A stretch of 50,851 nucleotides of DNA from Bacillota bacterium (GTDB taxonomy: Bacteria; Bacillota; UBA4882; UBA10575): contig DUQR01000029.1 of the NCBI GenBank assembly GCA_012837715.1, positions 1 through 50,851 on the forward strand. Direction: 5' to 3'. The notes under the pieces were generated by a model. The model was not told the DNA's origin, did not search any database, and saw only the letters and a program-made list of their open reading frames with translations. Position 1 is the first letter of the stretch. The number at the start of each line of letters is the position of its first letter. The position numbers were made by a program, and so were the translations under genes. This document shows, piece by piece, positions 9,247 to 42,760 of the stretch.

Positions 9247-9290
9247 TTTCTGGTTATAAACAAGAGGAAGAATGGAGGGATTTGCATACT

Positions 9291-15764: not shown

Positions 15765-15937
15765 CTCCGCCCCTCCTATTCCCCGCATGGAAGTTTCCTG
15801 TAAATCTTCTTCCCCTTCCGCGACTTATCCTTCTTTTACCGATAACCATCCATCACTCCCGTGCTCAACCACTGCACAGCCCCGGGCCGCATCTTAACAA
15901 AAAACTGATTCTCAGCAAATTGCCCAACATAAAGAAA

Positions 15938-27270: not shown

Positions 27271-28659
27271 CTAAACTAAGCCCAACGTCCGCACGATTTG
27301 GGTAACCCCAAAGCAAACAAGGATCCCGATCCCGGTGGGAATTAATGCGGCCAGCACTGTCCATTTGGTGCTTTGTGTCTCTTTCCGGATGGTTAATAAA
27401 GTTGTCGCACAGGGAAAATGCAGCAGGGAAAGGAGGATCATATTGAGCGTCGTCAACCATGTCCAACCGTTATTCACCAACAGTTCCCGCAAAGCATCAA
27501 TACTATCCAACTCCAACATCATGCCCTGCGCTAAATAACTCATAATTAAAATCGGAATCACAATTTCATTGGCGGGCAGACCCAAGATAAAGGCTAAGAC
27601 AATGAAACCATCGAGGCCAATGGCGTGGCCAAAGCCCTGTAACCATCCGGCCAGGTGCGCTAAGATACTTAAATCCCCCACCTGAAGATTGGCCAGGAGC
27701 CAGGTTACAGCGCCCGCCGGCGCCGCCACCACCACGGCGCGCATTAAGACAAACAAGGTCCGGTCCAGCACAGAACGGATCAATAACGGGCCGAGCTTGG
27801 GGAGGCGATACGGCGGCAGTTCCAGCGTAAAAGTGGAAGGAACCCCCTTCAACAAAGTTTTGGATAAGACCCACGAGACGGCTAAAGTGACTAACACGCC
27901 AAGGACGACCACCCCCGCCACCAAAAACGAAGCGGCAAAAGTGTTATAACCGCTGACCAGGACGCCCATAAAGACCGCAGCCATGGTGATCATCGTCGGG
28001 AACCGTCCGTTACACGGCACAAAGTTATTGGTTAAAATCGCAATTAACCGTTCCCGGGGCGATTCAATAATCCGGCAGGCAATGATTCCGGCGGCATTAC
28101 AACCAAAGCCCATACACATAGTAAGAATCTGTTTGCCATGGGCTCCCGCTTTCTTAAATAGTCGATCAAGGTTGAAGGCGACCCGGGGAAGATAGCCTAA
28201 ATCTTCGAGAAAAGTAAAGAGCGGGAAGAAGATGGCCATCGGCGGCAACATGACCGAAACCACCCAGGCCAATCCGCGGTACATACCTAAAACCAATACC
28301 CCGTGCAGCCAAGCGGGAGCGCCAACCCACTGGAAAAAGGCGGTTAACCGGTGTTGGAACCCGAACAGCAGATCCGCCAGGAGCGCCGAGGGAAGATTAG
28401 CCCCGCTAATGGTCAGCCAGAAGATAAAACTAAGCAAAGCAAGCATCAGGGGATAACCTAAAAGCTTTGAAGTAACAATATTATCGATCGTGCGGTCCAA
28501 GTCCCTCTTGTTCTCTTCTTTCTTCACCACTTTTTCCGCGATCTGCTGGGCTTCGCGGTAAAGAGCCTGCACGACCTGATCACGTACTGCCCCCAATTTC
28601 TTCCGCTCCGCTTCCGCTTTTTGCGTAAGGCGCTCAAAATCGGTTGCTAAGTTGTTCAA
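27271..28659 (-). CDS. feoB: FeoB membrane domain (separate gene)
   Basis: The Fe(II) permease part of FeoB as an independent 462-residue protein. An N-terminal helical linker (about 1-65) is followed by two Gate/nucleoside-recognition repeats: GCNAAGIIACRIIESPRERLIAILTNN near 190, with the PCNGRFP pore motif, and LGLPANEIVIPI near 360. In most bacteria this is fused to the GTPase. Here the GTPase is the preceding gene and the two overlap by 26 bases. Both have their own start and end and conserved motifs, so this is a natural split and not a frameshift. The start is TTG 28659 behind GAGGGGG. Confidence 0.92.
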   Translation of the reverse strand: MNNLATDFERLTQKAEAERKKLGAVRDQVVQALYREAQQIAEKVVKKEENKRDLDRTIDNIVTSKLLGYPLMLALLSFIFWLTISGANLPSALLADLLFGFQHRLTAFFQWVGAPAWLHGVLVLGMYRGLAWVVSVMLPPMAIFFPLFTFLEDLGYLPRVAFNLDRLFKKAGAHGKQILTMCMGFGCNAAGIIACRIIESPRERLIAILTNNFVPCNGRFPTMITMAAVFMGVLVSGYNTFAASFLVAGVVVLGVLVTLAVSWVLSKTLLKGVPSTFTLELPPYRLPKLGPLLIRSVLDRTLFVLMRAVVVAAPAGAVTWLLANLQVGDLSILAHLAGWLQGFGHAIGLDGFIVLAFILGLPANEIVIPILIMSYLAQGMMLELDSIDALRELLVNNGWTWLTTLNMILLSLLHFPCATTLLTIRKETQSTKWTVLAALIPTGIGILVCFGVTQIVRTLGLV

Positions 28660-29452
28660 AGCCTTTTACCCCCTCGCCCTTTTCAAGAAAGGGTTCTGCC
28701 TTTGGTTGCCTTCTTTGTAAGTAGTTACGCATCTCATTAACAAGCGTCGGATCTCCGTCTAACAGGCGGAGCGCCACCCACCTACTGTTAAATTTACCTT
28801 GAAACAGCCGCTTAACTTCACCCTGAAGTTCCCCGATGACGGCCTCAATCGCTTGGTTGTAGACGATCCGCTTGGGTCGATTCCTTTGTTTTCCGAAGAC
28901 CACTTTATGAATGGCCTCTTTCAAATCGGTAAGGCCAACCTTATCCCTGGCCGCAGCAGGCACGACCGGTATTCCCAAGCTCCTTTCCAACTTAGGGCAG
29001 TCAACCTCGATCCGCTTGCGTTTTGCTTCATCAACCAAATTTACACAGAGAATGGTTTTCGGCGTAATCTCAATGACTTGCAAAACCAAATTTAGATTCC
29101 GTTCCAAACAAGTGGCATCGGCGACCACGACGGTCGCATCGGGATCACCAAAGCAGATAAAGTCGCGGGCTACTTGTTCATCGGCCGAATTGGCCAGAAG
29201 CGAATAAGTCCCCGGTAAATCCACCAAGGTTATGCTTTTATTTCTATGGCGGTAATTGCCTTTCGCTAAAACCACGGTTTTTCCGGGCCAATTCCCGGTA
29301 TGTTGATTCAGTCCCGTTAAGCCGTTGAAGACTGTGCTTTTTCCGGTATTCGGATTTCCGGCCAAAGCAACCACGGCATCAGCCTTCACCGGGCTGCGGC
29401 TGAGTTCTTCCAGAAAGGCGTAAATGCCTGTGGATTGAGCTGTTAGCCCCAA
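28634..29452 (-). CDS. feoB: FeoB GTPase domain (separate gene)
   Basis: A 272-residue G-protein of the FeoB type: G1 GNPNTGKST, G2 region NWPGKTV, G3 VDLPGTYSL and G4 NLVD (FeoB usually has NxxD). A GDI-like helical domain (LFQGKFNSRWVALRLLDGD) ends the protein. It controls iron flow through the FeoB membrane protein encoded next. TTG 29452 has GGGGG eight bases upstream. The frame to 29530 would run into the palindromic element at 29490-29607 and is rejected. The order feoA, GTPase, membrane part on one strand suggests an operon. Confidence 0.92.
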   Translation of the reverse strand: MGLTAQSTGIYAFLEELSRSPVKADAVVALAGNPNTGKSTVFNGLTGLNQHTGNWPGKTVVLAKGNYRHRNKSITLVDLPGTYSLLANSADEQVARDFICFGDPDATVVVADATCLERNLNLVLQVIEITPKTILCVNLVDEAKRKRIEVDCPKLERSLGIPVVPAAARDKVGLTDLKEAIHKVVFGKQRNRPKRIVYNQAIEAVIGELQGEVKRLFQGKFNSRWVALRLLDGDPTLVNEMRNYLQRRQPKAEPFLEKGEGVKGFEQLSNRF

Positions 29453-29489
29453 GCTACTGACCCCCTTTTTTCGGAACCGGCAAAAGTAG

Positions 29490-29607
29490 AGCTTTTTGCG
29501 TTGTTTCTTGCTTCGGTAATCCCAATACAATATATCGATAGCCTAATTTAAGTGAAACACTATATATTGTATTGCAATCCCTTTTATTGGTTGCAACGCA
29601 AAAAGCT
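29490..29607. repeat. Palindromic MITE-like element A (118 bp)
   Basis: AGCTTTTTGCGTTG (29490-29503) and CAACGCAAAAAGCT (29594-29607) are perfect inverted ends. Inner arms AATACAATATAT (29524-29535) and ATATATTGTATT (29562-29573) are also perfect. The element lies between feoA and the feoB GTPase gene. A second complete copy with the same ends and spacing is at 48956-49070. The ends resemble terminal inverted repeats of a miniature transposable element; no clear target duplication is visible. Confidence 0.8.
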
Positions 29608-30038: not shown

Positions 30039-30064
30039 AAAAAAAGACTGCCCTTACGGACAGT
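30039..30064 (-). terminator. Terminator of the polysaccharide-utilisation operon
   Basis: ACTG and CAGT (30047-30050, 30061-30064), extended by CC/GG pairs, form a short stem. On the minus strand a run of seven T (complement of 30039-30045) follows. It is the first terminator after the isomerase gene. Confidence 0.72.
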
Positions 30065-30088: not shown

Positions 30089-30895
30089 TTAAAGCAGGGG
30101 CTTTATTTTTTGGATGTATTGGTAGATCGCAATGTAGGAATCTTCGATCCCGGGATGCCATCGTTTCTCCCATTCGAGAGATAAAAAACCACGGTAACCT
30201 ATCACCTGCAAATACTCGACTATGGTCTCCAACGGCAATGCGCCGGCCCCCAACAGCACCAGTCGATCCTGACCCAATCCTGGCACCACCAGCCAATCCT
30301 TGAGGTGGATATGATGGATTAAAGCACCAACCTTTTGAAGGGTTGCGGTGACCGCTTCCCCTTCGCGCAACGAATGCTTCACATCCCATAACACCCCGGC
30401 CGAGATGGGCCCGGCAAGATCAAAAACCTGTCTTACCGCATGACCACTACTCAACAGATCATGGTTTTCCAGAAGCACCCGCACCCCGCGCTTCGTGGCA
30501 TAATCATCCACCGCCACTAACCCGTCGGCAATCCACCGCGCTAAGTTCTCCCGGTCGACAGGCCAGTCCACATTTGCGCCAAAGGTGCGGACATAAGGGG
30601 CTTCCAAATCATGGGCCAGGTCGATTACTTGTTTGAGCGCGATAATATTTTCCTGGCGCCGTTCCGGCTCGGAAAAAGCAAAACGGGTATACGCCGCCAA
30701 ACAAGGAATTGCCAGCTTATTCCGGGTGAACAAACGCCGTACATTTTTCCGTTCGGTTTGGGAAAGAGCGGGGTGAACCGCTTCATCATCGGCAACCCGC
30801 AACTCTACCCCATCATAACCCCATTCCCGGGCCAGCCGGACAATCGTCGCCAAATCCCAACCGACACAAGCCAGGGTACTAAAGGAGAGTCGCAA
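30089..30895 (-). CDS. Sugar isomerase/epimerase (xylose-isomerase-like TIM barrel)
   Basis: A 268-residue protein of the AP_endonuc_2 fold shared by sugar isomerases, epimerases and IolE-like dehydratases. The metal-site segments are VLLENHD (Glu), GVLWDVKH (Asp), IHHIHLKD (His) and FLSLEWEK (Glu), so it should be active. It probably rearranges the monosaccharide released by the upstream GH2 and lyase enzymes. The start is TTG 30895 with GGGAGG six bases upstream; GTG 30916 lies before that site. It is the last gene of the operon, separated from the lyase gene by 139 bp holding a partial palindromic element. Confidence 0.86.
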   Translation of the reverse strand: MRLSFSTLACVGWDLATIVRLAREWGYDGVELRVADDEAVHPALSQTERKNVRRLFTRNKLAIPCLAAYTRFAFSEPERRQENIIALKQVIDLAHDLEAPYVRTFGANVDWPVDRENLARWIADGLVAVDDYATKRGVRVLLENHDLLSSGHAVRQVFDLAGPISAGVLWDVKHSLREGEAVTATLQKVGALIHHIHLKDWLVVPGLGQDRLVLLGAGALPLETIVEYLQVIGYRGFLSLEWEKRWHPGIEDSYIAIYQYIQKIKPLL

Positions 30896-30951
30896 AAAAT
30901 TCCTCCCTTCAAACACATATAGTAAAATAAATCCCTTTCCAACTCGATAGC

Positions 30952-30998
30952 GCTTTTTACGTTGTCCTTTGTTTTATTCCTTCAAGACAATATAATTC
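30952..30998. repeat. Partial palindromic element C
   Basis: About 47 bp matching one arm of the family: GCTTTTTACGTTGTC, then TTCAAGACAATA near the inner arm. It is closest to the left arm of the element at 48956, with roughly three quarters of positions identical by eye. The opposite arm is not recognisable, so this is a half copy. Confidence 0.6.
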
Positions 30999-31034
30999 GG
31001 AAAAACTTGGACAAGAAGCCGCGCCTCAAAAGAC

Positions 31035-32888
31035 CTATTGCCGAAGGGTAAGAATGACCTCCCCCTCCAGGTCGGGTTCAATCCGGGTCAAGCATAACCG
31101 GAAAATCCGTCGCCCCCAGCAAGCCGCCAATAATGGATCCGCAATGGGAATTAACTCCCAGGAAGGCGCCCACTGGGCTTGATCATACAAAAGTTTGACT
31201 GCCTCCGCCCCCGCCTGTAAATACAGGAAATCCGGCCCGATCCGGGGTTCCTGCGGCAGTATCAAAACAAGCTGGAGCGAATGGGCATAGACCAATCTGA
31301 ACCGGTCCCGGATCCCTACGGCCGGCTGCGGTTCCCGGCTTAAACGATAACTGCGCTCCCATTCCCGAATTCCTGCTTCCGGCGGGTAGGCTTCCCTTAA
31401 TTCAAAACTCACCGTAGAACTCTTGCCGTCACGGTAATACCGCGCCTCCAGCGCCCGATGCTCTTTTCCCGGTAACTGTTCGTAACCATTAATGATCGGC
31501 AGATTGTGGTAGATGGAACGCATGGTCCAAAGCTCATACCGGCGGGGGCTGAAGGTCCGGGCGGTATAGGTTTCAACCCCCACATCAATCAGGAGGGGAT
31601 GGCCATTGTAATAGACAATGCAACTACCCACATCGTTGTGGTTATGATTCTCACCGTTATGACCGCCTTTGGCGCTGAGATAGAATCCTTGGTTTTGATC
31701 ACCCCTTTCCCGGGCGATCATTACTTGTAAACGGTCGAACCAATGGTCTAGGCTGGCGTCTTCCTGAAGTCCGTCCTCCCCCATGAGCTCCGCATGGAGC
31801 AGAGCGGCGCGGATCAAACGGCCAAGGGAAAAAGTCGGGGCTGCCATTAACTTATTCAGCCCGTATTGCCGGTACATTTGGGCTCCCAACGTTATCAACT
31901 TGGGATCTTGAATCCGCTTTCCATAAGCGTATAAAAGGGAACCGTCCACTTCAGCCTTGGCGCTGCCATCAGCGAAATTCACAAAGTATTCCCCGGCAAT
32001 ATGGACATGGCGCATGTACTGGCCAATCTTTACCAACAATGGCTTGGAAAAAGGATCAAAGGCGCCTTGGCTCACTTCCCATAACATTTCTAAACATTCA
32101 AAGAGAGAACCCCCGGAGCGCCCCCAATAGCTTGGCCCCTCATCACATCCGCCATCCGGGGAATAATGCTGAAGGTACCGGTCTAAACTACGCAGGCCTT
32201 TACCCACCGCCCGCTGACGGCGGGTGGCGTTTTCCTCGGTTAATAAAAACACCCGGAGACAGTTTCCGGTGATCCAGGGAACCCAGTTGCCTAAAGTATG
32301 GCCGGTATCATTACGAAAACCCATCCACCAGAAATCGTCCCGCTCCAAATAGGGGGTAAGAATGCGTTTCTCTAGCTCCCACCGGATGCGTTCGGTTCCT
32401 TGCGGCGTAATTTCCGCCAGCGCCGAACCGAGAAGATGCCAAGTCCAAGCCAGCAAAGCGCCAGTTTCGGCGGCAAACAAGTCAATAACCGGTTCCTCAA
32501 TCCGGGGCAACCGGTGCAAACCGCCCTGCGCGTAAAATTGGTTATGATGGGCTGGCAAGACCCAACTGGTTTCTTCACTGATACACCAAATACCGTTGAG
32601 GATATCATCCAAAAACCGGCCTTTCTGCTCCAAACACTCGGCCAGGACCAGCGTTGCCAGGACTTGCCGCCGCTTAAAATAAGCGGCTTCAAAGGGCGCC
32701 CGGTTTCCGGTGCGGGCATAATCCATATATAGGGTAGCCGGTAAAGAAGGCCACTGGAAAGCGGAGTATTTTTCCGCGACCGGGATCAACGCTTGCCGAA
32801 AAGCGGACGCAACTCTTTGCCAAGCGGGCCGGGCTGTCAGCCGCGGAACCGTCGGCAATCCGGTTTCTTCCCAGAGCGAAACGAGCAC
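31035..32888 (-). CDS. Heparinase II/III-like polysaccharide lyase
   Basis: A 617-residue protein with an alpha/alpha-toroid N-terminal half (about 1-380) and a beta-sandwich C-terminal half opening with YLSAKGGHNGENHNHNDVGS near 415. The His/Asn-rich site is the hallmark of heparinase II/III-like lyases (PL12, PL15, PL17 and PL21 groups). RYELWTMRSIYHNLPIINGY follows. These enzymes cleave uronic-acid glycosidic bonds by beta-elimination. No signal peptide is present, so it acts on imported oligosaccharides. GTG 32888 follows AAAGGAGG; the longer frame to 32933 crosses it. Exact substrate (alginate, heparan-like, pectic or other) cannot be read. Confidence 0.85.
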   Translation of the reverse strand: MLVSLWEETGLPTVPRLTARPAWQRVASAFRQALIPVAEKYSAFQWPSLPATLYMDYARTGNRAPFEAAYFKRRQVLATLVLAECLEQKGRFLDDILNGIWCISEETSWVLPAHHNQFYAQGGLHRLPRIEEPVIDLFAAETGALLAWTWHLLGSALAEITPQGTERIRWELEKRILTPYLERDDFWWMGFRNDTGHTLGNWVPWITGNCLRVFLLTEENATRRQRAVGKGLRSLDRYLQHYSPDGGCDEGPSYWGRSGGSLFECLEMLWEVSQGAFDPFSKPLLVKIGQYMRHVHIAGEYFVNFADGSAKAEVDGSLLYAYGKRIQDPKLITLGAQMYRQYGLNKLMAAPTFSLGRLIRAALLHAELMGEDGLQEDASLDHWFDRLQVMIARERGDQNQGFYLSAKGGHNGENHNHNDVGSCIVYYNGHPLLIDVGVETYTARTFSPRRYELWTMRSIYHNLPIINGYEQLPGKEHRALEARYYRDGKSSTVSFELREAYPPEAGIREWERSYRLSREPQPAVGIRDRFRLVYAHSLQLVLILPQEPRIGPDFLYLQAGAEAVKLLYDQAQWAPSWELIPIADPLLAACWGRRIFRLCLTRIEPDLEGEVILTLRQ

Positions 32889-32975
32889 CCCCCGTTCCTC
32901 CTTTCCATCACTCGACGCCGGGCAATAACCCATTCGGCGCTTTAAATTTGCTTGGTCTACACGTTATAATCCCCG

Positions 32976-34136
32976 TCACCCCATTGGCCAACGGGGACCG
33001 GCCAGCGCTTGATCGGGAAGAACGTCTTTTTCTCCGCTCCAGATCCGCAGGCTGGTATAGGGCGCTGGCGGAGCCAACCAAAAAGGATGGCTGCTGGGTA
33101 GACCGAGAGGCAATAAGGCGGTAGAACAAAGATAAACGCTGGCGTTTGTGATATAGGACTCACCCAAAACCGGCTGGCGCCCGGCGAGGCCAATCGTCAG
33201 CCAGCCGTTTTCGTCAAAGGCGCCGGGTGCTTCCATGGTCCTTTTCATGACGGCGCTTAAACCGCAACGCACTTGCGCCGGGGTTAACTCCGCCGGCAGC
33301 TGATCCCGCCAAGCCAGTTGCGCCAGGAGATGGAAGGCCCCCATCCGATAGGTGAGCGACCGCCCAATCGGCGGAAAAGAGCCATCGGGGGCAATCAGTC
33401 GTTCGAGAATAACCGCCTGCCTTTCCGCCCGTTGCCGGACAAGGGGAAACAGGCTCTCCAGATCGGCCCGTTCAGCCCGGAAGGTAGCAACCAGATCCAG
33501 CAACATGGGCTGGATGACAAAACTATTGTAATAATCCCAATGAAACTCCGGGCCATCACTGTACGTTCCGTCCCCAAGGTACCAGTCTTCAAGTTGGCGT
33601 AAGGCATAATCGACGCGCATCGGATCGTAGCCGACGCCCATGCGAAAAAGGGCGGCTTCAATGATCGCGCTAAACAATAACCAATTACAAAAGTAGGGTT
33701 GAATCGCCCTTGTCTTTTGCAGGCCGGCAATCAAATCAGCTTGGACCCGCGGATTCAACTTCCCCCATAATTCGGTGGGAGCCCGCAAAAGGGCTTGGGC
33801 TAAAAAAGCGGCATCGACGAGAGGCTGATCTGGGCCGGTAAAATTAAACCGGTCCGGGGAGGCCTGATCAAGCCCGATTGTCAACGCCTGGCGCGCCAGA
33901 TCCCTGAACTCCTTATTGAGCTTTGCTTCCAGTCCGGTCGGTTCCAGCTCCAACCAAGGAGCAAGCCCGTTCAGCAGCCGACCGGTCACTTCCAGGCTGG
34001 CATATTTTCGCCGACACGGATCGCCCGCCAAAGGCATCCGGGCCATTAACTTCCCACCGGCCAGGTTCGTCAAGACCGGTCGGGCTAAACGTTCCAGTAT
34101 TTGTACCCAATAGGCACGTACCTTTTCCACCGCCAT
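32976..34136 (-). CDS. DUF2264-family protein
   Basis: A 386-residue protein of the DUF2264 (COG4289) type, predicted to be an alpha/alpha-toroid. Conserved-looking stretches are YCNWLLFSAII-like (PYFCNWLLFSAIIEAALFRM, about 147), LEDWYLGDGTYSDGPEFHWDYYNSF (about 183) and the C-terminal GLAGRQPVLGESYITNASVYLC. Members occur in polysaccharide operons next to glycosidases and lyases; activity on unsaturated or modified sugars is suspected, not shown. No signal peptide. It begins 14 bp behind the GH2 gene and precedes the lyase, consistent with one transcript. ATG 34136 has GGGGATG about 11 bases upstream. Confidence 0.82.
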   Translation of the reverse strand: MAVEKVRAYWVQILERLARPVLTNLAGGKLMARMPLAGDPCRRKYASLEVTGRLLNGLAPWLELEPTGLEAKLNKEFRDLARQALTIGLDQASPDRFNFTGPDQPLVDAAFLAQALLRAPTELWGKLNPRVQADLIAGLQKTRAIQPYFCNWLLFSAIIEAALFRMGVGYDPMRVDYALRQLEDWYLGDGTYSDGPEFHWDYYNSFVIQPMLLDLVATFRAERADLESLFPLVRQRAERQAVILERLIAPDGSFPPIGRSLTYRMGAFHLLAQLAWRDQLPAELTPAQVRCGLSAVMKRTMEAPGAFDENGWLTIGLAGRQPVLGESYITNASVYLCSTALLPLGLPSSHPFWLAPPAPYTSLRIWSGEKDVLPDQALAGPRWPMG

Positions 34137-34150
34137 CTTAACATCATCCC

Positions 34151-35950
34151 CTAATCCGCCGGGGACCGGGACAGCCCCTCCGCTGCTCGGCGCCGGTAAT
34201 ACTCCTGTAGAACCCCAAAGGCCAGTTTACGAGTGCGCTTGTCTTCGGCGATCAGACCTTTGCGGTTGTAACCTTGTTGAAAACGGTTTTGTCGCCTTGG
34301 CGAGCGGAAATCATATAAGATCCAAGGGGAAAAACCTCTAATATAATCGATGTTCCTAGTGATCTCAATCTGCTGTTGATAGACACGGGCCATATATTCT
34401 TCGGTGAACATTTCGGTGACCGGACCATGATAACCGGCCAAGGCGCCGGCTCCCGTCTCGCTGATCACGACCGGTTTCCCAGGCCGCCATTCCTTAAGAA
34501 GCTTGACAAGGCCTGCGTAGTCCGGATTATACCAGCCATAATATTCGTTTATCCCGATCACATCTAAAACCTGGGCCAAGCGATCCTGCTCCACAATACA
34601 AGCCGCCGCCACCAGTCTGGCCGGATCTTGCTTCTTGGCGGCCCGGAATAGATTGCTCATGAATTGGAAGCGGTCCTCCGTATCCGCGTTTTCATTCCCA
34701 ATGGACCAAATGATCACACTTGCCCGGTTAAAGTCCCGCTTGATCAGTTCTAACAATTGATTTTCCGCATCTTGATACGTCTCCGGATTGGCGAAGTCGA
34801 CCGTCCAATAGACCGGGAGCTCCTCCCAAAGCAAAATACCCAGTTCATCAGCGATCTGCGCTGCCAATTCACTGTGGGGATAATGAGCGAGCCGGACATA
34901 GTTACACCCTAATTCCAGCGCATCGGCAAACATTTGACGAATGCGCTCTTCAGTGGTGGCTTTCCCCAGTTCCCAATCGTCTTCATGCACGCTAATTCCC
35001 CGGAGAAAGAGGGGTTTACCATTGAGGAGCAACTCCGTCCCCCTAGTTTCAATTTGCCGGAAACCGACCCTGTCCTGAATGGTATCCTCTTGATAGGTAA
35101 TCACGCATTGATAGAGTTTGGGATTTTCCGGGCTCCATAGCTCCGGTTGACCCTCTACGGTAAACTCCGCCCGTCCCTCGATGACCGGGCTTTTTACTGA
35201 AATATTCAGTTCGGGGATGCTTAAAGTGACGATTTCTTCCGCAACGCCCTGCATAGCCTGGTTAACCTCGACTTCTGCTTTAATGGTGGAAAAGCTGCCG
35301 TCGGGCACAAGATAGATGGCAACCTGCTGGATGAAATTCGGTGGCAGACGCAAGAGTTCAACATCCCGGTAGAGCCCGCCGTAATTGAACCAATCGGTAT
35401 TCCGGCCCGGCAAGCGCTGGATGGAACGTTCGTTATTGACACAAATTTGCAATAAATTATCTTCCTTAAGATGGGCGGTGAGTTCCAGGCAAAAAGGAGT
35501 AGAACCGCCTTGATGGCGCCCAAGATATACGCCGTTCAGAAAAATCTTCGTGTCGTAGTTGGCGGCGCCGATCCGGAGGAAAACCCGTTCTCCCGGGCGC
35601 TGGGGCCGATAAGACACACGCCGGGCGTACCAGGCGCTTCCTTCGTAGTAGTAGTATTCCGGGTGCACCGTATTCCAACAGGACGGCACCGGCGTCAAAT
35701 CTCCTTCATCCCAACCGTAGTCCCAAGGGGTGTCTTTTTGCCAATAAGCCTGATCCCTCTCTTGCGGCCAGTTGGCTCTAAGCCCAGTATCGTATGGATC
35801 AACCGTAAAATACCAGTAACCGTTGAGGCTTTCGGCGGGACGGTTAGTCCGGAAAACCAATGATTGATGATCAATTCGTGCCATCGCATACTGCTGCAGA
35901 TAAGATTCACTATGAATGTGGGTAACAATCTTTTCGTTGATCGTAATCAC
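34151..35950 (-). CDS. GH2 glycosidase (beta-glucuronidase/galactosidase type)
   Basis: About 590-600 residues with the GH2 three-domain core. A jelly roll starts at ESLNGYWYFTVDPYDTG, an Ig-like domain follows, and then a TIM barrel. RGISVHEDDWELG and RLAHYPH lie near its start, acid/base Glu is in WSIGNENAD and nucleophile Glu in VISETGAGA. The short NENA-type motif and single Ig domain fit the beta-glucuronidase branch, consistent with a uronate substrate. Start choice is open: AAAGGAG (complement of 35950-35956) is a good binding site, but the next in-frame codons are GTG abutting it, then ATT, ACG and ATC; the first ATG is at 35884. The gene is flanked by the permease and DUF2264 genes. 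Confidence 0.88.
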   Translation of the reverse strand: MITINEKIVTHIHSESYLQQYAMARIDHQSLVFRTNRPAESLNGYWYFTVDPYDTGLRANWPQERDQAYWQKDTPWDYGWDEGDLTPVPSCWNTVHPEYYYYEGSAWYARRVSYRPQRPGERVFLRIGAANYDTKIFLNGVYLGRHQGGSTPFCLELTAHLKEDNLLQICVNNERSIQRLPGRNTDWFNYGGLYRDVELLRLPPNFIQQVAIYLVPDGSFSTIKAEVEVNQAMQGVAEEIVTLSIPELNISVKSPVIEGRAEFTVEGQPELWSPENPKLYQCVITYQEDTIQDRVGFRQIETRGTELLLNGKPLFLRGISVHEDDWELGKATTEERIRQMFADALELGCNYVRLAHYPHSELAAQIADELGILLWEELPVYWTVDFANPETYQDAENQLLELIKRDFNRASVIIWSIGNENADTEDRFQFMSNLFRAAKKQDPARLVAAACIVEQDRLAQVLDVIGINEYYGWYNPDYAGLVKLLKEWRPGKPVVISETGAGALAGYHGPVTEMFTEEYMARVYQQQIEITRNIDYIRGFSPWILYDFRSPRRQNRFQQGYNRKGLIAEDKRTRKLAFGVLQEYYRRRAAEGLSRSPAD

Positions 35951-35967
35951 TCCTTTCGCCTCATCTC

Positions 35968-36783
35968 CTACCCCTTCAGGCCTGTCAATGAGATCCCTTC
36001 CACAAAATATTTCTGGCAAGCGAGAAAAACGATAAGCACCGGGATTAAAGAACAGACCGAAGCCGCCATAATTAAAGCATATTCCGCGCTGTATTGGGAG
36101 ATAAACATACGGATTCCCAGTTGGATCGTACGTAAGTCTCCAGAATGCAAATAAATGAGCGGTCCTAAAAAGTCGTTCCAAACAAAAACAAAAGTGAAGA
36201 TGGTAAGGCTGGCCAACGCCGGTTTTGAAAGGGGCAACATAATTTTGGTGTAGATCCCGAATTCACTTAAACCATCAATTCGGGCTGCTTCAATCAGCTC
36301 ATCGGGGATGCTTAAATAGAATTGCCGCATGAGAAAGACCCCAAAAGGGCTAAAGGCCTGCAGTAAAATGAGGGCTAGGTGTTTGTTGACCAGACCCAGG
36401 TTGCGCATTAAAATAAACTGCGGGATCATCACCACTTGAAAGGGGATAATCATGGTTGCGATATACGCCACAAATAAGCCGTTCCGTTCCGGGAATTTCA
36501 GCTTGGCAAAGGCGTAAGCCGCCAGACTGCAGGTGAGCAACTGGAGGAGAGTAATGATCACGGTTAGTTTGATCGTGTTAAAATAGTAGCGGCCGAAATT
36601 AATCTTTGTCCATATTGTAAGGTAATTTTTCCACTGCGGATCTTTTGGAATCCACTGGATGGGAAATTGAAAGACCTGAACATTGGTCTTCAAAGATGCG
36701 GAAAGCATCCACACAAAGGGTAGCAACATCAAGAGCGAGGAGGCGATTAAGGGTATGATTAGGTAAGGACGCATTTTCTTCAT
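35968..36783 (-). CDS. Sugar ABC transporter permease (MalG type)
   Basis: A 271-residue membrane protein with six helices and the CUT1 permease EAA loop (EAARIDGLSEFGIYTKIMLPLSKP) near residue 185, which docks on the ATPase. SAAYAFAKLKFPERN-like and PFQVVMIPQFILMRNLGLVN segments are typical of MalG homologues. ATG 36783 follows AAAGGATG; ATG 36792 is an alternative. It partners with the MalF-type permease encoded 61 bp upstream. No ATPase gene is present, as usual for Bacillota systems served by a shared MsmX-like ATPase. Confidence 0.94.
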   Translation of the reverse strand: MKKMRPYLIIPLIASSLLMLLPFVWMLSASLKTNVQVFQFPIQWIPKDPQWKNYLTIWTKINFGRYYFNTIKLTVIITLLQLLTCSLAAYAFAKLKFPERNGLFVAYIATMIIPFQVVMIPQFILMRNLGLVNKHLALILLQAFSPFGVFLMRQFYLSIPDELIEAARIDGLSEFGIYTKIMLPLSKPALASLTIFTFVFVWNDFLGPLIYLHSGDLRTIQLGIRMFISQYSAEYALIMAASVCSLIPVLIVFLACQKYFVEGISLTGLKG

Positions 36784-36844
36784 CGGATTCATCCTTTCAT
36801 TAATCTGAAAGTCCGGGCATAATCCTAAACATACGCGACTGGTA

Positions 36845-37726
36845 TCAATTTAAATAGGTAACCCATCTTTCCTGTAAGCGGAACTGGAGGATGGTGAAAC
36901 CTAAAATAATCAAGAAAAACGTAGTAGCCATGGCTGAGGCGTAACCGAAATTCTGGTTGACAAAAGCCTGCACGTAAATATAGTAAACCAGCACCGAGGT
37001 GGCCCGACCCGGCCCTCCCTGGGTCATAATATGAATCTGATCAAACACTTTAAAAGAGTAAATCAGATTCATGGTCAGGACAAAAAACAAGGTTGGAGTG
37101 AGCAGTGGCAGAGTAACATAGCGAAATTTTTGCCATGGCGAGGCCCCATCGATCGTGGCCACTTCGTATAAATGATCGGGTATGGCTTGTAACCCGGCAA
37201 GAAACATCGTCATATAGTAACCGGCTGATTTCCAGACCGTCATGATAATCACCGCCGGCATTGCCCAGGTTGCCGATGCCGTCCACCGCGGGGGGGTGGC
37301 GATCCCAATCGCGCGTAAAAAATGATTGATCGGGCCCATATCCGGATGGTACAAAAATTGCCAGACCACAGCAACCGCAATCAGCGAAGCGACATGAGGA
37401 AAAAAGTGAATCGCGCGGATTATTTTAATACTACGGAAACCTTTATTGAGCGCTAAGGCTAATAGTAGAGCAAAGATCACGGTCAGGGGCACCGTTAAAC
37501 CGGTAAAATAAAGGGTGTTCCAAAAGGCAATGATAAAACTACTATCGCGAAACATCGTTGCAAAATTGCGCAACCCCACATATTTGATAGGTGAATAGCT
37601 GTCCCAACGCATAAAACTCAAACCTAATGCCGTGAAGACCGGAAGCAAAGTGAAGACAAGAAAGCCGAGCAAATTAGGTAAAAGAAAACAATAGGCGGTA
37701 AGCCGGTTTCTGGTGGTCTTCTTCAA
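36845..37726 (-). CDS. Sugar ABC transporter permease (MalF/UgpA type)
   Basis: A 293-residue membrane protein with six helices. The CUT1 signatures are YCFLLPNLLGFLVFTLLPV at the N-terminus, the EAA loop YEVATIDGASPWQKFRYVTLPLL near 215 and FDQIHIMTQGGPGRATSVLVYYIY near 250. It forms the import channel with the MalG-type protein. TTG 37726 is preceded at eight bases by AAGGAG; the in-frame ATG (37735) sits on that site. The hairpin at 37749-37787 separates it from the binding-protein gene. Confidence 0.94.
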   Translation of the reverse strand: MKKTTRNRLTAYCFLLPNLLGFLVFTLLPVFTALGLSFMRWDSYSPIKYVGLRNFATMFRDSSFIIAFWNTLYFTGLTVPLTVIFALLLALALNKGFRSIKIIRAIHFFPHVASLIAVAVVWQFLYHPDMGPINHFLRAIGIATPPRWTASATWAMPAVIIMTVWKSAGYYMTMFLAGLQAIPDHLYEVATIDGASPWQKFRYVTLPLLTPTLFFVLTMNLIYSFKVFDQIHIMTQGGPGRATSVLVYYIYVQAFVNQNFGYASAMATTFFLIILGFTILQFRLQERWVTYLN

Positions 37727-37748
37727 AAAGATCATCTCCTTTTTTACA

Positions 37749-37787
37749 GTAAAGTACCCTGTGCTTCTCACGTACAGGGTACTTTAC
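37749..37787 (-). promoter_or_regulatory. Perfect intercistronic hairpin between binding protein and permease genes
   Basis: GTAAAGTACCCTGT (37749-37762) pairs perfectly with ACAGGGTACTTTAC (37774-37787). It lies about 25 bp behind the binding-protein stop codon. Such a stem protects the upstream mRNA segment or partly terminates transcription, giving more binding protein than permease, as in other sugar ABC operons. Confidence 0.78.
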
Positions 37788-37812
37788 ATCCACGTTCTTG
37801 CTTCTGTTTATA

Positions 37813-39075
37813 CTATTGATTTAGCTCAATAATCTCTTGCCGTCGTTCTTCCATATCGGCAATGGCTTGGTCAATACTCTTATTACCCGTCATCGCCAGT
37901 TGGATCTCTTCATCCACCATCTTACCGAGGAGACCGGAGAGCGGATGGGCCGGCCATTCCATATGCACAATATTGGTGACCAACGCTTCGGCGCCATCAC
38001 TCGGGAATCCCGGCACACTGGCAAAGCTCTTAAAGACCGAGTCATCAACATAACCGGGCATAATCATATTCTCCGCCAGAATAGCGGCGCCGTCCTTACC
38101 GCCTAAAAACTTGGCCAGTTCCCAAGCGGCTTCCATTTTTTTAGTTTTGGCGTTAATCACCACCGGCGTGACGTTACCAATGGTCGAATGTTCAACCCCT
38201 TCCCACTGAGGAATACGGACAATTCCCCAATTTACATTATGGAGTCCTTCCTTGGCATCATGAACCAAGGCTTGCATATACCAAGTTCCCATGTAGAGCA
38301 TGCCGATATTGCCCTGCTCAAACAAACCCCGGTAATGGGCGCCCATCGAACGGTTGGTGGCATAGTCGGCAGCGGATTTGTCAACCGTTTGGATTTGGTA
38401 AGCCAGTTCCAACCCATCTTTGAGCATGGAATAAGGCCCTTCGACCAGGTCGCCGATGTTCTTTTGTAGACCGAACACAAAATAGGTGCTCGCCCAGGTA
38501 TGGATATAGGCGCCATAGGTTCGGGAAGCGCCTTCCCCCGAAGTCAGTGCTTTTGCGGTTTTCCGGAATTCGCTCCAGGTCATGTTATTGGTCGGGTAAG
38601 GAACCCCAAAACGGTCAAATAGGTCTTTGTTGTAAAATAAGATCCAAAAATCTCCACGGTACGGCAGACCATAGATTTGATCATCGATCTTCACGTTGTC
38701 GAGATTGCCGCCATAGCCCGACAGATCCAGTTTGTCACGGGCGATCAGATCATTCAGGGGCCTGATTTGCTTTCTTAAAACTAGACCACCGTACATCGTC
38801 GGATCCTTGGCGTAAAAGACATCAATATCCTCGCCGCCGGCCAACATAATGAGCATCTTATCCGGGTATTCCGAAGCCGGCATATCAAATACTTCTACTT
38901 TGATTTCGGGATGACGTTTTTCAAACTCTTGGATCAATATTTTATCGTATTGGTTTAACTCATAATCCCAACAAGCAAATTTCAATGTGGTCCCGGCTTT
39001 GGCCGCCTGGGTGACGGGAATTAGCGCGATCAACAGCAACCCCACTAATCCAAAGGTAAACAGTCTTCTCCTCAC
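37813..39075 (-). CDS. Extracellular sugar-binding protein (ABC SBP family 1)
   Basis: A 420-residue solute-binding protein. The signal peptide (RRRLFTFGLVGLLLIALIPV) ends near TQAAKA and lacks a lipobox, so its anchoring is unclear. The mature part shows the family-1 features LKFACWDYEL, EKRHPEIKVEV, YGLPYRGDFWILFYNKDLF and a C-terminal MEWPAHPLSGLL. It should bind an oligosaccharide, with many aromatic residues available for stacking. GTG 39075 follows AAGGAGGG. It is the first transporter gene; the palindrome (39090-39113) and a TATAAT box (complement of 39142-39147) lie upstream. Confidence 0.93.
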   Translation of the reverse strand: MRRRLFTFGLVGLLLIALIPVTQAAKAGTTLKFACWDYELNQYDKILIQEFEKRHPEIKVEVFDMPASEYPDKMLIMLAGGEDIDVFYAKDPTMYGGLVLRKQIRPLNDLIARDKLDLSGYGGNLDNVKIDDQIYGLPYRGDFWILFYNKDLFDRFGVPYPTNNMTWSEFRKTAKALTSGEGASRTYGAYIHTWASTYFVFGLQKNIGDLVEGPYSMLKDGLELAYQIQTVDKSAADYATNRSMGAHYRGLFEQGNIGMLYMGTWYMQALVHDAKEGLHNVNWGIVRIPQWEGVEHSTIGNVTPVVINAKTKKMEAAWELAKFLGGKDGAAILAENMIMPGYVDDSVFKSFASVPGFPSDGAEALVTNIVHMEWPAHPLSGLLGKMVDEEIQLAMTGNKSIDQAIADMEERRQEIIELNQ

Positions 39076-39089
39076 AACACACCCTCCTT

Positions 39090-39147
39090 ATATTATTTAT
39101 AGCTAAATAATATTGCTTTTCGGTTGAATGGTAAATGTTTTATTATA
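39090..39147 (-). promoter_or_regulatory. Promoter region of the sugar ABC operon
   Basis: On the minus strand a TATAAT box (complement of 39142-39147) has no good -35, as expected for a promoter activated by an AraC-type regulator. Downstream, ATATTATTTA (39090-39099) and TAAATAATAT (39104-39113) form a perfect dyad in the 5' leader. Confidence 0.55.
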
Positions 39148-39241
39148 CGTTTCTTTATATTTTGTAACGGTTTTGTGTCGAAAAAAAGGAAGCAAAAAAA
39201 TGGCCCCGGAAATTATTGACTTTTCTTTGGTTTTGTTGCGG

Positions 39242-40852
39242 TTATTTTTGTTTTCGGTAATCAAGCGGGGTTAAACCCGTTATCTTCTTAAAGAGCCGGT
39301 TGAAATAATACTGATTGGTATAACCAACCATCTGGCCAATTTCATAGACGTGGTAATGGGTCTCTTTCAGGAGTTCTTTAGCCCGTTCCAAGCGGACCCA
39401 GGTCAAGTACTCGGAGTAACTCATTCCTGTGTGTTCTTTAAAGACTGTGCTGAAATAGGAAGGTGTAAGCCCTACCACCGCCGCTACCTCGGCCAGAGTA
39501 ACTTCTTCGGCATGGTGTTCACGGATATAACGTTTGGCTTCACCAATGACCCGTGGATAGTTATTTCCTTCTTCACCTTGAATAAAGAGAGCCAAGTCTT
39601 TCTTCAATTCGGAAAGCCAGCCCAGAACCTGGCTTAAATTAACCATATGTAGCAACTCCCGGTATGTTTGGTAGCTTGAGGTTAAAACTTCCTCCGGGGA
39701 TAAACCCTTACGGTCGATGATTTCGCAGAGCATGGAGAGTAACTCCAAGGCGCCATGGGAACAAGCTTCCTGACTAAGATGTAACTCTTTAAAATCATTA
39801 ATGATCGCATCAAAGACAGAACATAACTCCTCGACCTGGGCTTGGAGGAAAGTTTGTTCAATGCGGTCCCGGTACTGAAGGACCGAATAGGTCTCCCGCG
39901 GGGGTGGAAGATGCTCGACCCGCTTCCAGAGGATAATTTGGTCATTTTCCTTGAAAAAGCGATATTGAATCGCCTCGTTGGCTTGCCGGTAGGCAGTGCG
40001 AATCCCATCATAACTGATGGCTACATCCCCGATTCCAATCACTGCCTTTAAACCTAAATATTGTTCCAGGATCGTCAGTAATCTTTGACAAGCGGTAATA
40101 ACCCCTTCGATCCGGGCGGACGGTTTTTTCGGCGACAATAATAAGACAAATTCGTCCTCCTTGATTTGAAAACAATAACCCCAATAGTCATCGCCGGTCA
40201 CTTCTTCACAGATGCTCATAATGGCGTTTACGGTCGATTTGGCCTGATCGGCGCCCATATTGTCTAAACGATAGGCGTTTCCGATCCGGAACACAAGGCA
40301 ATAGACCTGATCCGGATCAAGACAAATACCCAGGCGGGCTAATCCTTGCTGTAGTTTTTCCCCGCAGAGTTTCTCATTACATAAAATCTCCTCTAAGAAA
40401 ACCCGGCGGAGGGTGGAAATATTTGTTTGGATTTCCTCATCGATCTGAGCTTGCTGTCTTCGTTCCGCTCTTTCCTGCAAAATCTCTTCTTTGAAACTGG
40501 CCAGCACTTCCAGTAACTGATCGGGTTCCATCTCCAGTTTGAGGAGATAATCGACGGCCCCCAGTTTCATGGCTTCCCTAACCAAAGCATAATCATCATA
40601 ACTACTAAGCACAACAACCCGGCATTTAGCATTTAATTCGTTTAGACGGCGGATTAACTCAAGGCCATCCATGACCGGCATCTTCAAATCGGTAATCACT
40701 AGATCCGGTTTGCTTTTCCGAAACAAGTCCAAGGCCTTCTGCCCATCATTTGCTTCGCCAACCAACTGAAATCCGTGGTTCTCCCAGTCGATCATCGATT
40801 TTAAGCCGATGCGCACAATGGCTTCATCATCAACAATCATCACTTTCACCAT
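39242..40852 (-). CDS. YesN-type response regulator (REC plus AraC HTH)
   Basis: A 536-residue regulator. The receiver domain (1-125) has the phosphoacceptor Asp55 in LVITDLKMP and acidic DDE at 8-10. A long middle region (about 140-420) includes a degenerate cyclase-like segment. The C-terminal AraC pair of helix-turn-helices spans about 435-536 (LAEVAAVVGLTPSYFSTVFK and IGQMVGYTNQYYFNRLFKK). It would activate the sugar operon directly downstream when phosphorylated by the YesM-type kinase. ATG 40852 follows GGAGGTG and overlaps the kinase gene by 23 bases. Confidence 0.94.
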   Translation of the reverse strand: MVKVMIVDDEAIVRIGLKSMIDWENHGFQLVGEANDGQKALDLFRKSKPDLVITDLKMPVMDGLELIRRLNELNAKCRVVVLSSYDDYALVREAMKLGAVDYLLKLEMEPDQLLEVLASFKEEILQERAERRQQAQIDEEIQTNISTLRRVFLEEILCNEKLCGEKLQQGLARLGICLDPDQVYCLVFRIGNAYRLDNMGADQAKSTVNAIMSICEEVTGDDYWGYCFQIKEDEFVLLLSPKKPSARIEGVITACQRLLTILEQYLGLKAVIGIGDVAISYDGIRTAYRQANEAIQYRFFKENDQIILWKRVEHLPPPRETYSVLQYRDRIEQTFLQAQVEELCSVFDAIINDFKELHLSQEACSHGALELLSMLCEIIDRKGLSPEEVLTSSYQTYRELLHMVNLSQVLGWLSELKKDLALFIQGEEGNNYPRVIGEAKRYIREHHAEEVTLAEVAAVVGLTPSYFSTVFKEHTGMSYSEYLTWVRLERAKELLKETHYHVYEIGQMVGYTNQYYFNRLFKKITGLTPLDYRKQK

Positions 40853-42650
40853 CCGGCTTCACCTCCATTGGCAGCCTAATCACCACTTTAGTGTATTCCC
40901 CCTCCCGACTGTCGAGGGCCAAGCCGTAATCCACTCCATAGATCAACTGGATTCGATCGTGGATGTTTCGCAGGCCGATCCCATTGTTGGCCTTGCCCCT
41001 GTCCCCATCCTCTTTGGCTAATAGGCCGACCAATTTTTGCCGGCTGATGCCGACACCATTATCCCAAACCGAGATGACCAGCTGTTGCTGTTGTTCAGTG
41101 ATGGATAAAACAACTTCCCCGGAACCATCCTTCGGTTCAATCCCGTGGAAAACGGCATTCTCCACAAGAGGCTGTAGGGTAAACTTGGGAATTAAGCAAT
41201 TGAGGAGAACAGGCGCTTCGATGATCCGTCGAAAGCCGATTTTACCACGGTAACGGATTTTCTGAATATACATATAGTCGTCGAGGAGGGCTAATTCTTC
41301 CCGGATGGTTATTTTCTCATTCACATCTCCCATGACCGCCCGGAGTAACCGGCCTAAGGAACTGATCATCGCCCGGATCCCATCCGCCCCTTGCAAGGTA
41401 GCCATCCATTTGATTGAGTTTAAAGTGTTATGCAAAAAGTGGGGGTTAATCTGGCTTTGGAGGAGACGGACCTCCGTCTTTCTAATGTTTTCCTCGATTT
41501 GCAGGCGTTCATCCAGAAGATTTTGAATCTGCTGGGACATGCGGGTAATCGCCCGTCCTAAAACCCCAATTTCGTCGTTGTTTCTCAAGACCACTTCCCG
41601 GCCGAAATCCCCGCCGGCGATGCGGTTTACGGTCTCGGTCAGTGAGCGAATAGGCTTCCACAGGTTTTCCGATAAGAATAAGGAAAACCACAAGCACAAA
41701 AAGATGGTCCCACCGGCCAGCCAAAAGGTGGTGATCGCTATTAACTGGCGCTGTCTTTGCAGTTCATCTAGACGGGTAATAAGGGTGACATGGGTTTTCG
41801 TTCTTTCCGCAGCCCGGTGGACCACCAAGTAGCTTTGGTTCCCTGCAGTCACCTCAAAGTAAGGCCGTTCTTCTTCTATCAATCCCTCTAAGAGCTGGGA
41901 CCAATCGGCTGCCGACTCCTGGGCGCCGTAGTGGTCACTGAAGAAGAGACGTCCGGAGGCGTCATGGATAAAGAGAAAGGCTTCCTTTTCCGCGACTAAG
42001 CCACTATAGGACTGGCGAAAAAAGGAGGGTTTGAGCTGAAGCACAATCGAACCGAGGATTTTTCCGTTCTGAATATCGATAAATCCCCGGTAGACGGGGA
42101 TGATGTACGGGTTGGAAGTGCGGGAAGAGTAGTTTGGGGTTATCGCTCCCCAGGTGAGTACACTGGAATGGGAGATCCCTTGTTGGAACCAGGGTTCGTT
42201 GGCGAAGACGGCCGGATCAATCCGGTAGCTATCCGGACCATACCGGATGTCAATCCCATTATGCCCCAGGAGAAAGAAGGCATTAACATGCTCCATGATG
42301 GGCAGGAAGCGGAACTGGTTTTCAATCTTCTGGACGACATTGATGTTCTGCTGGTCATAACGTTTGGCTTCTTCCGGGGTCCGTTGCAGCAGACTGAGCA
42401 CATCCCGATCCAAATACAACCAGTTGGTAAACTGATAAGCCTCTTCAATCTGCTGTTCCACATTGTTTAAAATATGAGCGAGCAGGATGACATAGGTATC
42501 ACCGACATTTGCTTCTAATGCCTTTTTTGAGTCCACATAGTAGAAAACACTGATGGTGACCGCCGGGATAAAGGCAATAAACATAAAGCCCAGTAAAAGC
42601 TTTTTTTTTAGACCCCAAGACCGCATTTGAAAGCGTTCTTTAATATCCAT
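40830..42650 (-). CDS. YesM-type sensor histidine kinase
   Basis: A 606-residue membrane kinase. The first transmembrane helix is near 15-40, followed by an extracytoplasmic Cache-like sensor of about 240 residues, a second helix (about 300-325) and a HAMP linker. A His_kinase domain carries the phosphoacceptor in LQSQINPHFLHNTLNSIKW, and a HATPase has N box LQPLVENAVFHGI and G box NNGIGLRN. This architecture senses extracellular carbohydrates in Gram-positive sugar operons, with or without the binding protein. ATG 42650 is preferred to 42659 because of AAGGATG at suitable spacing. It starts the locus, with the regulator gene overlapping its end. Confidence 0.94.
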   Translation of the reverse strand: MDIKERFQMRSWGLKKKLLLGFMFIAFIPAVTISVFYYVDSKKALEANVGDTYVILLAHILNNVEQQIEEAYQFTNWLYLDRDVLSLLQRTPEEAKRYDQQNINVVQKIENQFRFLPIMEHVNAFFLLGHNGIDIRYGPDSYRIDPAVFANEPWFQQGISHSSVLTWGAITPNYSSRTSNPYIIPVYRGFIDIQNGKILGSIVLQLKPSFFRQSYSGLVAEKEAFLFIHDASGRLFFSDHYGAQESAADWSQLLEGLIEEERPYFEVTAGNQSYLVVHRAAERTKTHVTLITRLDELQRQRQLIAITTFWLAGGTIFLCLWFSLFLSENLWKPIRSLTETVNRIAGGDFGREVVLRNNDEIGVLGRAITRMSQQIQNLLDERLQIEENIRKTEVRLLQSQINPHFLHNTLNSIKWMATLQGADGIRAMISSLGRLLRAVMGDVNEKITIREELALLDDYMYIQKIRYRGKIGFRRIIEAPVLLNCLIPKFTLQPLVENAVFHGIEPKDGSGEVVLSITEQQQQLVISVWDNGVGISRQKLVGLLAKEDGDRGKANNGIGLRNIHDRIQLIYGVDYGLALDSREGEYTKVVIRLPMEVKPDGESDDC

Positions 42651-42760
42651 CGGCGCCATCCTTTTGTCACTGATTTGTTAATATTTTTCGATGTTGTTCT
42701 GAAAAAACCTCCTTTAATTCGTACTGCTTTTCTTTCTCACCTTATTGCCCCACGCTCTGG

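Follow-up and report, generated by a model that had tools for sequence, protein, structure and literature searches.

We predict that a nine-gene locus under YesM/YesN control in a Bacillota genome probably serves for the uptake and cytoplasmic dismantling of oligosaccharides containing 4-linked beta-D-glucuronate or a closely related hexuronate. This grading applies to the overall function of the operon and not to the direction of the reaction of its DUF2264 protein, which is treated separately below. The use of uronate oligosaccharides by mostly known parts is well supported. The architecture is ordinary and the parts were recently characterized; the one real loose end is the missing unsaturated-uronyl hydrolase.

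Organization of the locus

The locus lies in a stretch of 50,851 nucleotides, here called the window. The original prediction had placed nine genes at 30089-42650; all nine open reading frames are indeed present, on the minus strand from 42659 to 30089, each scoring above the Pfam cut-off for its family, and the families are those expected. The start of the kinase gene is moved to 42659. The features are, in the order of transcription:

40830-42659, minus strand: YesM-like sensor histidine kinase (Pfam His_kinase, HAMP, and HATPase_c; weak dCache)
39242-40852, minus strand: YesN-like response regulator with an AraC-type HTH (Pfam)
37813-39075, minus strand: extracellular solute-binding protein (SBP_bac_1, 126 bits)
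36845-37771, minus strand: CUT1-type ABC permease, MalF/UgpA-like (BPD_transp_1, profile matches)
35968-36792, minus strand: CUT1-type ABC permease, MalG/UgpE-like (BPD_transp_1, profile matches)
34151-35950, minus strand: predicted GH2 beta-hexuronidase for GlcA and/or GalA (family match, motifs; start revised)
32976-34136, minus strand: DUF2264 (former GH154) protein, putative beta-D-glucuronate dehydratase-type enzyme (Pfam, PDB matches, residues)
31035-32933, minus strand: PL33 polysaccharide lyase, predicted to be cytoplasmic (PDB matches, key residues)
30089-30916, minus strand: xylose-isomerase-like TIM-barrel protein, putative sugar or sugar-acid isomerase/epimerase (Pfam AP_endonuc_2, AlphaFold model)
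30047-30064, minus strand: terminator-like hairpin with a T-run after the last gene (consensus match only)

The regulator and kinase genes share 23 bp, and a 166-bp gap separates the regulator gene from the binding protein gene, whereas the gaps from the latter through the TIM-barrel gene are short, 14 to 118 bp. The nine genes form a regulator pair and a transport-and-enzyme operon. The YesM/YesN-controlled CUT1 loci of Bacillota consist of a sensor kinase, an AraC-type regulator, a solute-binding protein, and two permeases; compared with them, the window locus is ordinary and differs only in its enzyme cargo. No gene for an ABC ATPase was found within the locus. As originally noted for the enzymes, none of the four carries a signal peptide, judging by inspection of the N-termini. 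The binding protein, inspected in the same way, has a signal peptide that lacks the lipobox cysteine, and since such a protein would suit a periplasm, the host may be a diderm member of Bacillota. The same type of signal peptide occurs in the related locus L038, unlike locus L024.

The locus resembles a mosaic assembled from two modules. The G+C content of the enzyme genes (30089-35950) is 0.52 for GH2, 0.57 for DUF2264, 0.55 for PL33, and 0.53 for the TIM barrel, compared with 0.45-0.46 for the permeases and the regulator (in the 35968-42659 part) and a window mean of 0.48. The transporter counterparts in L038 are 79% (binding protein), 83% (MalF/UgpA-like permease), and 85% (MalG/UgpE-like permease) identical to the window proteins, and in L038 the transporter is oriented opposite to the DUF2264-PL33 genes. 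The DUF2264, PL33, and this type of GH2 gene occur in one copy each in the genome. A locus typical of its genus is ruled out, as DUF2264 is missing in two genomes of the same genus and four of the same family; one other match in the family is of a distant type (27% identity).

Two further observations concern the remainder of the window. FeoB appears as two overlapping open reading frames in different frames, the GTPase part at 28634-29530 and the membrane part at 27271-28659; by reading only, the gene at 27271-29530 is either split or frameshifted. The organism probably uses plant polysaccharides, because a GH10 xylanase (9282-10994, plus strand) and a GH3 enzyme (13500-15788, minus strand) are encoded in the same window.

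Enzyme assignments

The original prediction had listed a GH2 with beta-glucuronidase-like motifs, a heparinase II/III-type lyase, and a TIM-barrel isomerase-type protein, and all three assignments agree with the profile and structure matches given below. It had further considered the DUF2264 protein to be without a settled reaction, a view superseded by the demonstration that members of this family are beta-D-glucuronate dehydratases (PMC12269599, 2025).

The best PDB match of the GH2 protein is 6ncy (E 5e-191), named a beta-glucuronidase, and another relative, 7vqm, is named a beta-galacturonate enzyme. Both catalytic glutamates are present, in the motifs WSIGNE and ISETGA, together with the carboxylate motif NRK; the NxK motif is the mark of GH2 hexuronidases (PMC12243196). 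From these features the protein is predicted to be a beta-hexuronidase for GlcA and/or GalA. The open reading frame as listed starts at 36181 and overlaps the upstream permease gene. A GTG codon at 35950, 17 bp past the permease stop, agrees better with the N-terminus of the homologs and is probably the true start, because the homology with 6ncy begins there and the longer frame overlaps the permease.

The heparinase-like protein is assigned to PL33. It matches Pfam Hepar_II_III_C with 28.3 bits (cut-off 24) and the PDB structures 8r6z, 8r70, 8r73, and 8r75 in alignments of about 600 residues (E 1e-107 to 2e-114), and all 11 key catalytic, platform, and tunnel residues of BtPL33HA are kept. 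The catalytic N238, Y291, and H444 correspond to N216, Y269, and H430, and the substrate residues R103 and H154 to R78 and H129; the other key positions present are L152, W202, W217, W220, Y456, and F461. The equivalents of N238, Y291, and H444 are kept in all PL33-type proteins examined, and the window lyase also keeps the tryptophan at the W242 position, in which it resembles subfamily PL33_1. It would act by beta-elimination. By sequence it belongs to the same family as the hyaluronan, heparosan, and gellan lyases (BtPL33HA and others; PMC11848413), but differs from BtPL33HA-type enzymes in being cytoplasmic, as predicted from its N-terminus, and in its setting in an ABC-transporter operon of Bacillota.

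The DUF2264 protein matches PF10022 with 371.6 bits (cut-off 25) over positions 2-352 of its 353 residues. Its PDB matches are 8oi4, 9o4u, and 9nwf (E 6e-93 to 1e-85), of which 9o4u and 9nwf are structures of the glucuronate dehydratase BcGDH. Nine of the ten active-site residues that had been mutated in BcGDH are kept (E49, R53, N151, W152, F155, Y203, R259, Y263, and Y328), including the proposed base Y203, the acid Y263, and the arginine R259; the only change is N176, which is C150 in the window protein. BcGDH and BT3677, once placed in glycoside hydrolase family 154, dehydrate a terminal beta-D-glucuronate to a delta4,5-unsaturated residue, which is then cleaved by GH88, and it has been argued that the entire former GH154 family consists of dehydratases, not hydrolases (PMC12269599). 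The window protein would likewise be a beta-D-glucuronate dehydratase-type enzyme, possibly working here in the hydratase direction.

The TIM-barrel protein matches PF01261 (AP_endonuc_2) with 128 bits. Its AlphaFold model (pLDDT 82) has a xylose-isomerase-like fold and is closest to the Art22 isomerase (Z 28), and numerous epimerases and isomerases score Z 24 to 28; the fold search fits an isomerase, epimerase, C-deglycosidase, or hydratase without separating them. The protein is not a member of the named equivalogs IolO, fructoselysine 3-epimerase, Hyi, and similar, as its NCBIfam scores are far below the cut-offs (for instance, 51 of 300 bits for IolO). Based on the operon neighbors of its orthologs, it may act on a uronate-derived monosaccharide. 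One ortholog (45% identity) belongs to a PL33-GH2-TIM-Gfo/Idh-ManD-ABC operon (L155), where the D-mannonate dehydratase ManD, just over its cut-off, points to a saturated uronate as the monosaccharide. The second is a neighbor of the KDPG aldolase and KDG kinase genes (L156). The latter operon also holds GH112 and Gfo/Idh genes, and at L156:7076-11243 the ortholog lies between an old-yellow-enzyme-like oxidoreductase and a 616-aa protein without a Pfam match.

Uronate catabolism and the direction of the DUF2264 step

The enzymes, identified by their sequences, could act in the following predicted order. The oligosaccharide would be imported by the CUT1 transporter, energized by an ATPase presumably encoded elsewhere. 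The PL33 lyase would cut at uronate linkages and leave delta4,5-unsaturated uronate ends, and the DUF2264 protein would interconvert these with saturated beta-GlcA ends by gain or loss of water at C4-C5, both reactions sharing one active site. The GH2 enzyme would then free saturated uronate from the non-reducing ends, to be converted to KDG by UxaC, a UxuB-like reductase, and UxuA.

Normally, the unsaturated ends left by a uronate lyase are removed by GH88 or GH105 (both PF07470), followed by KduI and KduD. The genome under study (2.44 Mb, 98.7% complete, draft) was searched with family profiles, on which all genome-wide statements rest. No PF07470 match at E <= 0.001 was found, PF07470 being an imperfect probe and the genome a draft, nor was any GH88/GH105-like gene detected in the window with a custom HMM. 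KduI was not found in the genome, and for KduD there are only general SDR matches far below the cut-off. UxaC and UxuA are present outside the locus, and UxuA is followed by a UxuB-like open reading frame (137 of 603 bits, below the curated cut-off). Since UxaC, UxuA, and the UxuB-like gene are present, and PF07470, KduI, and KduD over the cut-off were not found, the genome is equipped for saturated uronate and not for unsaturated uronate by the known route. Thus, of the full import and breakdown route originally proposed, the import and intracellular breakdown of uronate oligosaccharides stand, but the route is not full: the locus has no GH88/GH105, none is detected in the genome, and the genes for saturated uronate lie elsewhere.

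We tentatively suggest, while holding it rather unlikely, that the DUF2264 protein is mainly a hydratase here: it would add water to the unsaturated ends produced by PL33, and the resulting saturated ends would be removed by GH2, so that neither an unsaturated-uronyl hydrolase nor KduI and KduD would be needed. A two-way enzyme would then have its direction set by its partner, GH88/GH105 or GH2. Hydration is conceivable at this step in view of the failure to find GH88/GH105, KduI, or KduD, and GH2 would pull the reaction. There is a precedent in the ulvan pathway of Formosa agariphila (P29_PDnc, P33_GH105, P34_GH3; PMC8511951), which likewise has a dehydratase between saturated and unsaturated uronate ends and a hydrolase for the saturated ones: the reaction of P29_PDnc ran in reverse in vitro once its saturated substrate was being consumed by GH3, and deuterium entered at the double bond. 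By analogy, a GH2 gene adjoining DUF2264, with no GH88/GH105 found, makes a hydratase role plausible. This reversal is a feature of P29_PDnc, to which the window enzyme is likened by arrangement; the sequence of P29_PDnc is described as bearing no relation to the BcGDH family, and the F. agariphila system has a GH105.

The only measured reactions of the DUF2264 family, those of BcGDH and BT3677, were recorded in the dehydration direction (PMC12269599), which speaks against hydration. It is a serious possibility, at least as likely as the hydratase role, that the window protein dehydrates saturated GlcA ends in the same way and that the residue is opened by a hydrolase invisible to PF07470, belonging either to the divergent GH105-like proteins or to a family not yet described; the product would then perhaps be isomerized by the TIM-barrel protein, whose fold relatives include sugar isomerases, in place of KduI. 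This alternative concerns the direction of one step, not the general function of the operon. A divergent hydrolase could be missed in the genome, because PF07470 missed a protein of this type: the divergent GH105-like protein of L050 matches PF07470 only with E 3e-4 when scored alone and gave no match in the search of its genome. Many other loci have a gene for a protein of this divergent kind immediately next to DUF2264, and a PL33-type lyase is often present too. However, the searches above gave no PF07470 match at E <= 0.001, no KduI, and no KduD over the cut-off in a genome that has the saturated-uronate route instead, and dehydration would make the GH2 beta-hexuronidase of the operon partly redundant.

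The reclassification of GH154 as dehydratases (2025) rests partly on the pairing with GH88/GH105. Among 50 named DUF2264 genomes, PF07470 scores over the cut-off in 33, gives only weaker matches in 6, and none in 11. Subject to the choice of these genomes by similarity to the window DUF2264, to the many drafts among them, and to the failure of PF07470 with one divergent member or more, the published pairing does not hold everywhere. The genome studied here resembles the 17 of 50 without PF07470 over the cut-off, and has an otherwise coherent route for saturated uronate. If DUF2264 acted as a hydratase in such organisms, a direction would have to be added to the annotations of the family, and a gap in uronate catabolism would be explained.

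Substrate and related loci

The substrates originally listed (pectin, alginate, ulvan, xanthan, and glycosaminoglycans) can be narrowed by the record of PL33 to beta-GlcA-containing chains such as heparosan, hyaluronan, chondroitin, gellan, and glucuronan. No substrate-defining gene (hexosaminidase, sulfatase, rhamnosidase, or glucosidase) was found in the locus; because it encodes nothing to act on amino sugars, sulfate, rhamnose, or glucose, a uronan-like oligosaccharide, or one trimmed beforehand, is slightly favored.

The characterized PL33 enzymes act on hyaluronan, chondroitin, heparosan, or gellan (PMC11848413), and the window lyase has the tryptophan at the W242 position that is typical of PL33_1, in agreement with the use of glycosaminoglycan or gellan fragments whose other sugars would be left to enzymes from other parts of the genome. 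We consider this unlikely, given a locus free of sulfatase, hexosaminidase, rhamnosidase, and amino-sugar genes and the presence of GH88 in glycosaminoglycan loci described elsewhere. The same gene content, in which all named enzymes fit uronate chemistry and none another sugar, would suit a beta-1,4-glucuronan-type oligomer. PL33 would then work as an oligo-lyase down to monomers with no need for GH88/GH105, DUF2264 would dehydrate terminal or free GlcA, and the TIM-barrel protein would isomerize 5-keto-4-deoxyuronate. One PL33 member does have some glucuronan activity, but characterized PL33 enzymes are endo-acting, the glycosaminoglycan-degrading ones ending at disaccharides (PMC11848413); with KduI absent and no KduD over the cut-off as well, such a homo-uronan route is quite doubtful.

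For the predicted uronate-oligosaccharide operon, one of the closest described counterparts is the chondroitin pathway of Bacteroides caccae PUL25 (BcPL35, BcGDH, BcGH88, BcGH109; PMC12269599), which also combines a uronate lyase and a DUF2264/GH154-type enzyme with the same active site in one locus. Here, however, the lyase is of PL33, a GH2 beta-hexuronidase is added, no GH88/GH105 is detected in the genome, the locus has no GH109-type gene, the oligosaccharide would enter through an ABC transporter, and its cutting would be cytoplasmic.

The four-enzyme cluster is not due to chance, because locus L037, from the nearest relative that has this cluster, keeps the same order, GH2-DUF2264-PL33-TIM, at roughly 67-80% protein identity. 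Its genome contains UxaC and UxuA but neither KduI nor KduD over the cut-off, and has one PF07470 match below the cut-off (E 7.6e-5). Thermotoga maritima, present among the control lines of the profile searches, appears to share much of this profile, with DUF2264, UxaC, and UxuA and without PF07470 or KduI. A point against the predicted route is that two other genomes with DUF2264 and PL33 (G101 and G300) have neither UxaC nor UxuA. GH2 genes of the window type occur in three contexts: DUF2264-PL33-TIM (the window and L037), PL33-TIM-Gfo/Idh-ManD-ABC (L155, on a contig that stops beyond PL33), and, in L024 (GH2 49% identical), alongside PL33, a GH105-like gene, and a DUF2264 of two domains. 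Thus GH2 and GH105-like enzymes are not exclusive, as L024 has both.

A divergent GH88/GH105-like clade is found in the DUF2264 loci L024, L026-L029, L033, L034, L058, L078, L092, L095, L100, L106, and L113, mostly directly beside DUF2264 and often with PL33. Its members match PF07470 with E from 4.5e-5 to 1e-27, one below the cut-off. In Bacillota, this clade probably supplies the hydrolase that usually accompanies DUF2264.

An AP_endonuc_2 protein directly adjoins DUF2264 in L046, L054, L056, and L085 and is near it in L037, and all five genomes lack a PF07470 match over the cut-off. The TIM barrel as a replacement for GH88/GH105 was considered and rejected: the proteins of L046, L056, and L085 share just 23-25% identity with that of the window and so do not make up one group, and closer orthologs of the window protein sit in saturated-uronate/KDG operons. 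A 3-keto oxidation route by a Gfo/Idh/MocA oxidoreductase and a TIM-barrel protein, a pair found beside DUF2264 in L085, was also discarded, as no oxidoreductase of this type is encoded in the window operon and a literature search gave nothing useful. In L085:5952-12182 and L054:5055-11140, DUF2264 is accompanied by Gfo/Idh or SDR proteins, D-2-hydroxyacid dehydrogenases, and a TIM barrel; with no PF07470 over the cut-off, this arrangement is perhaps another way to finish uronate removal.
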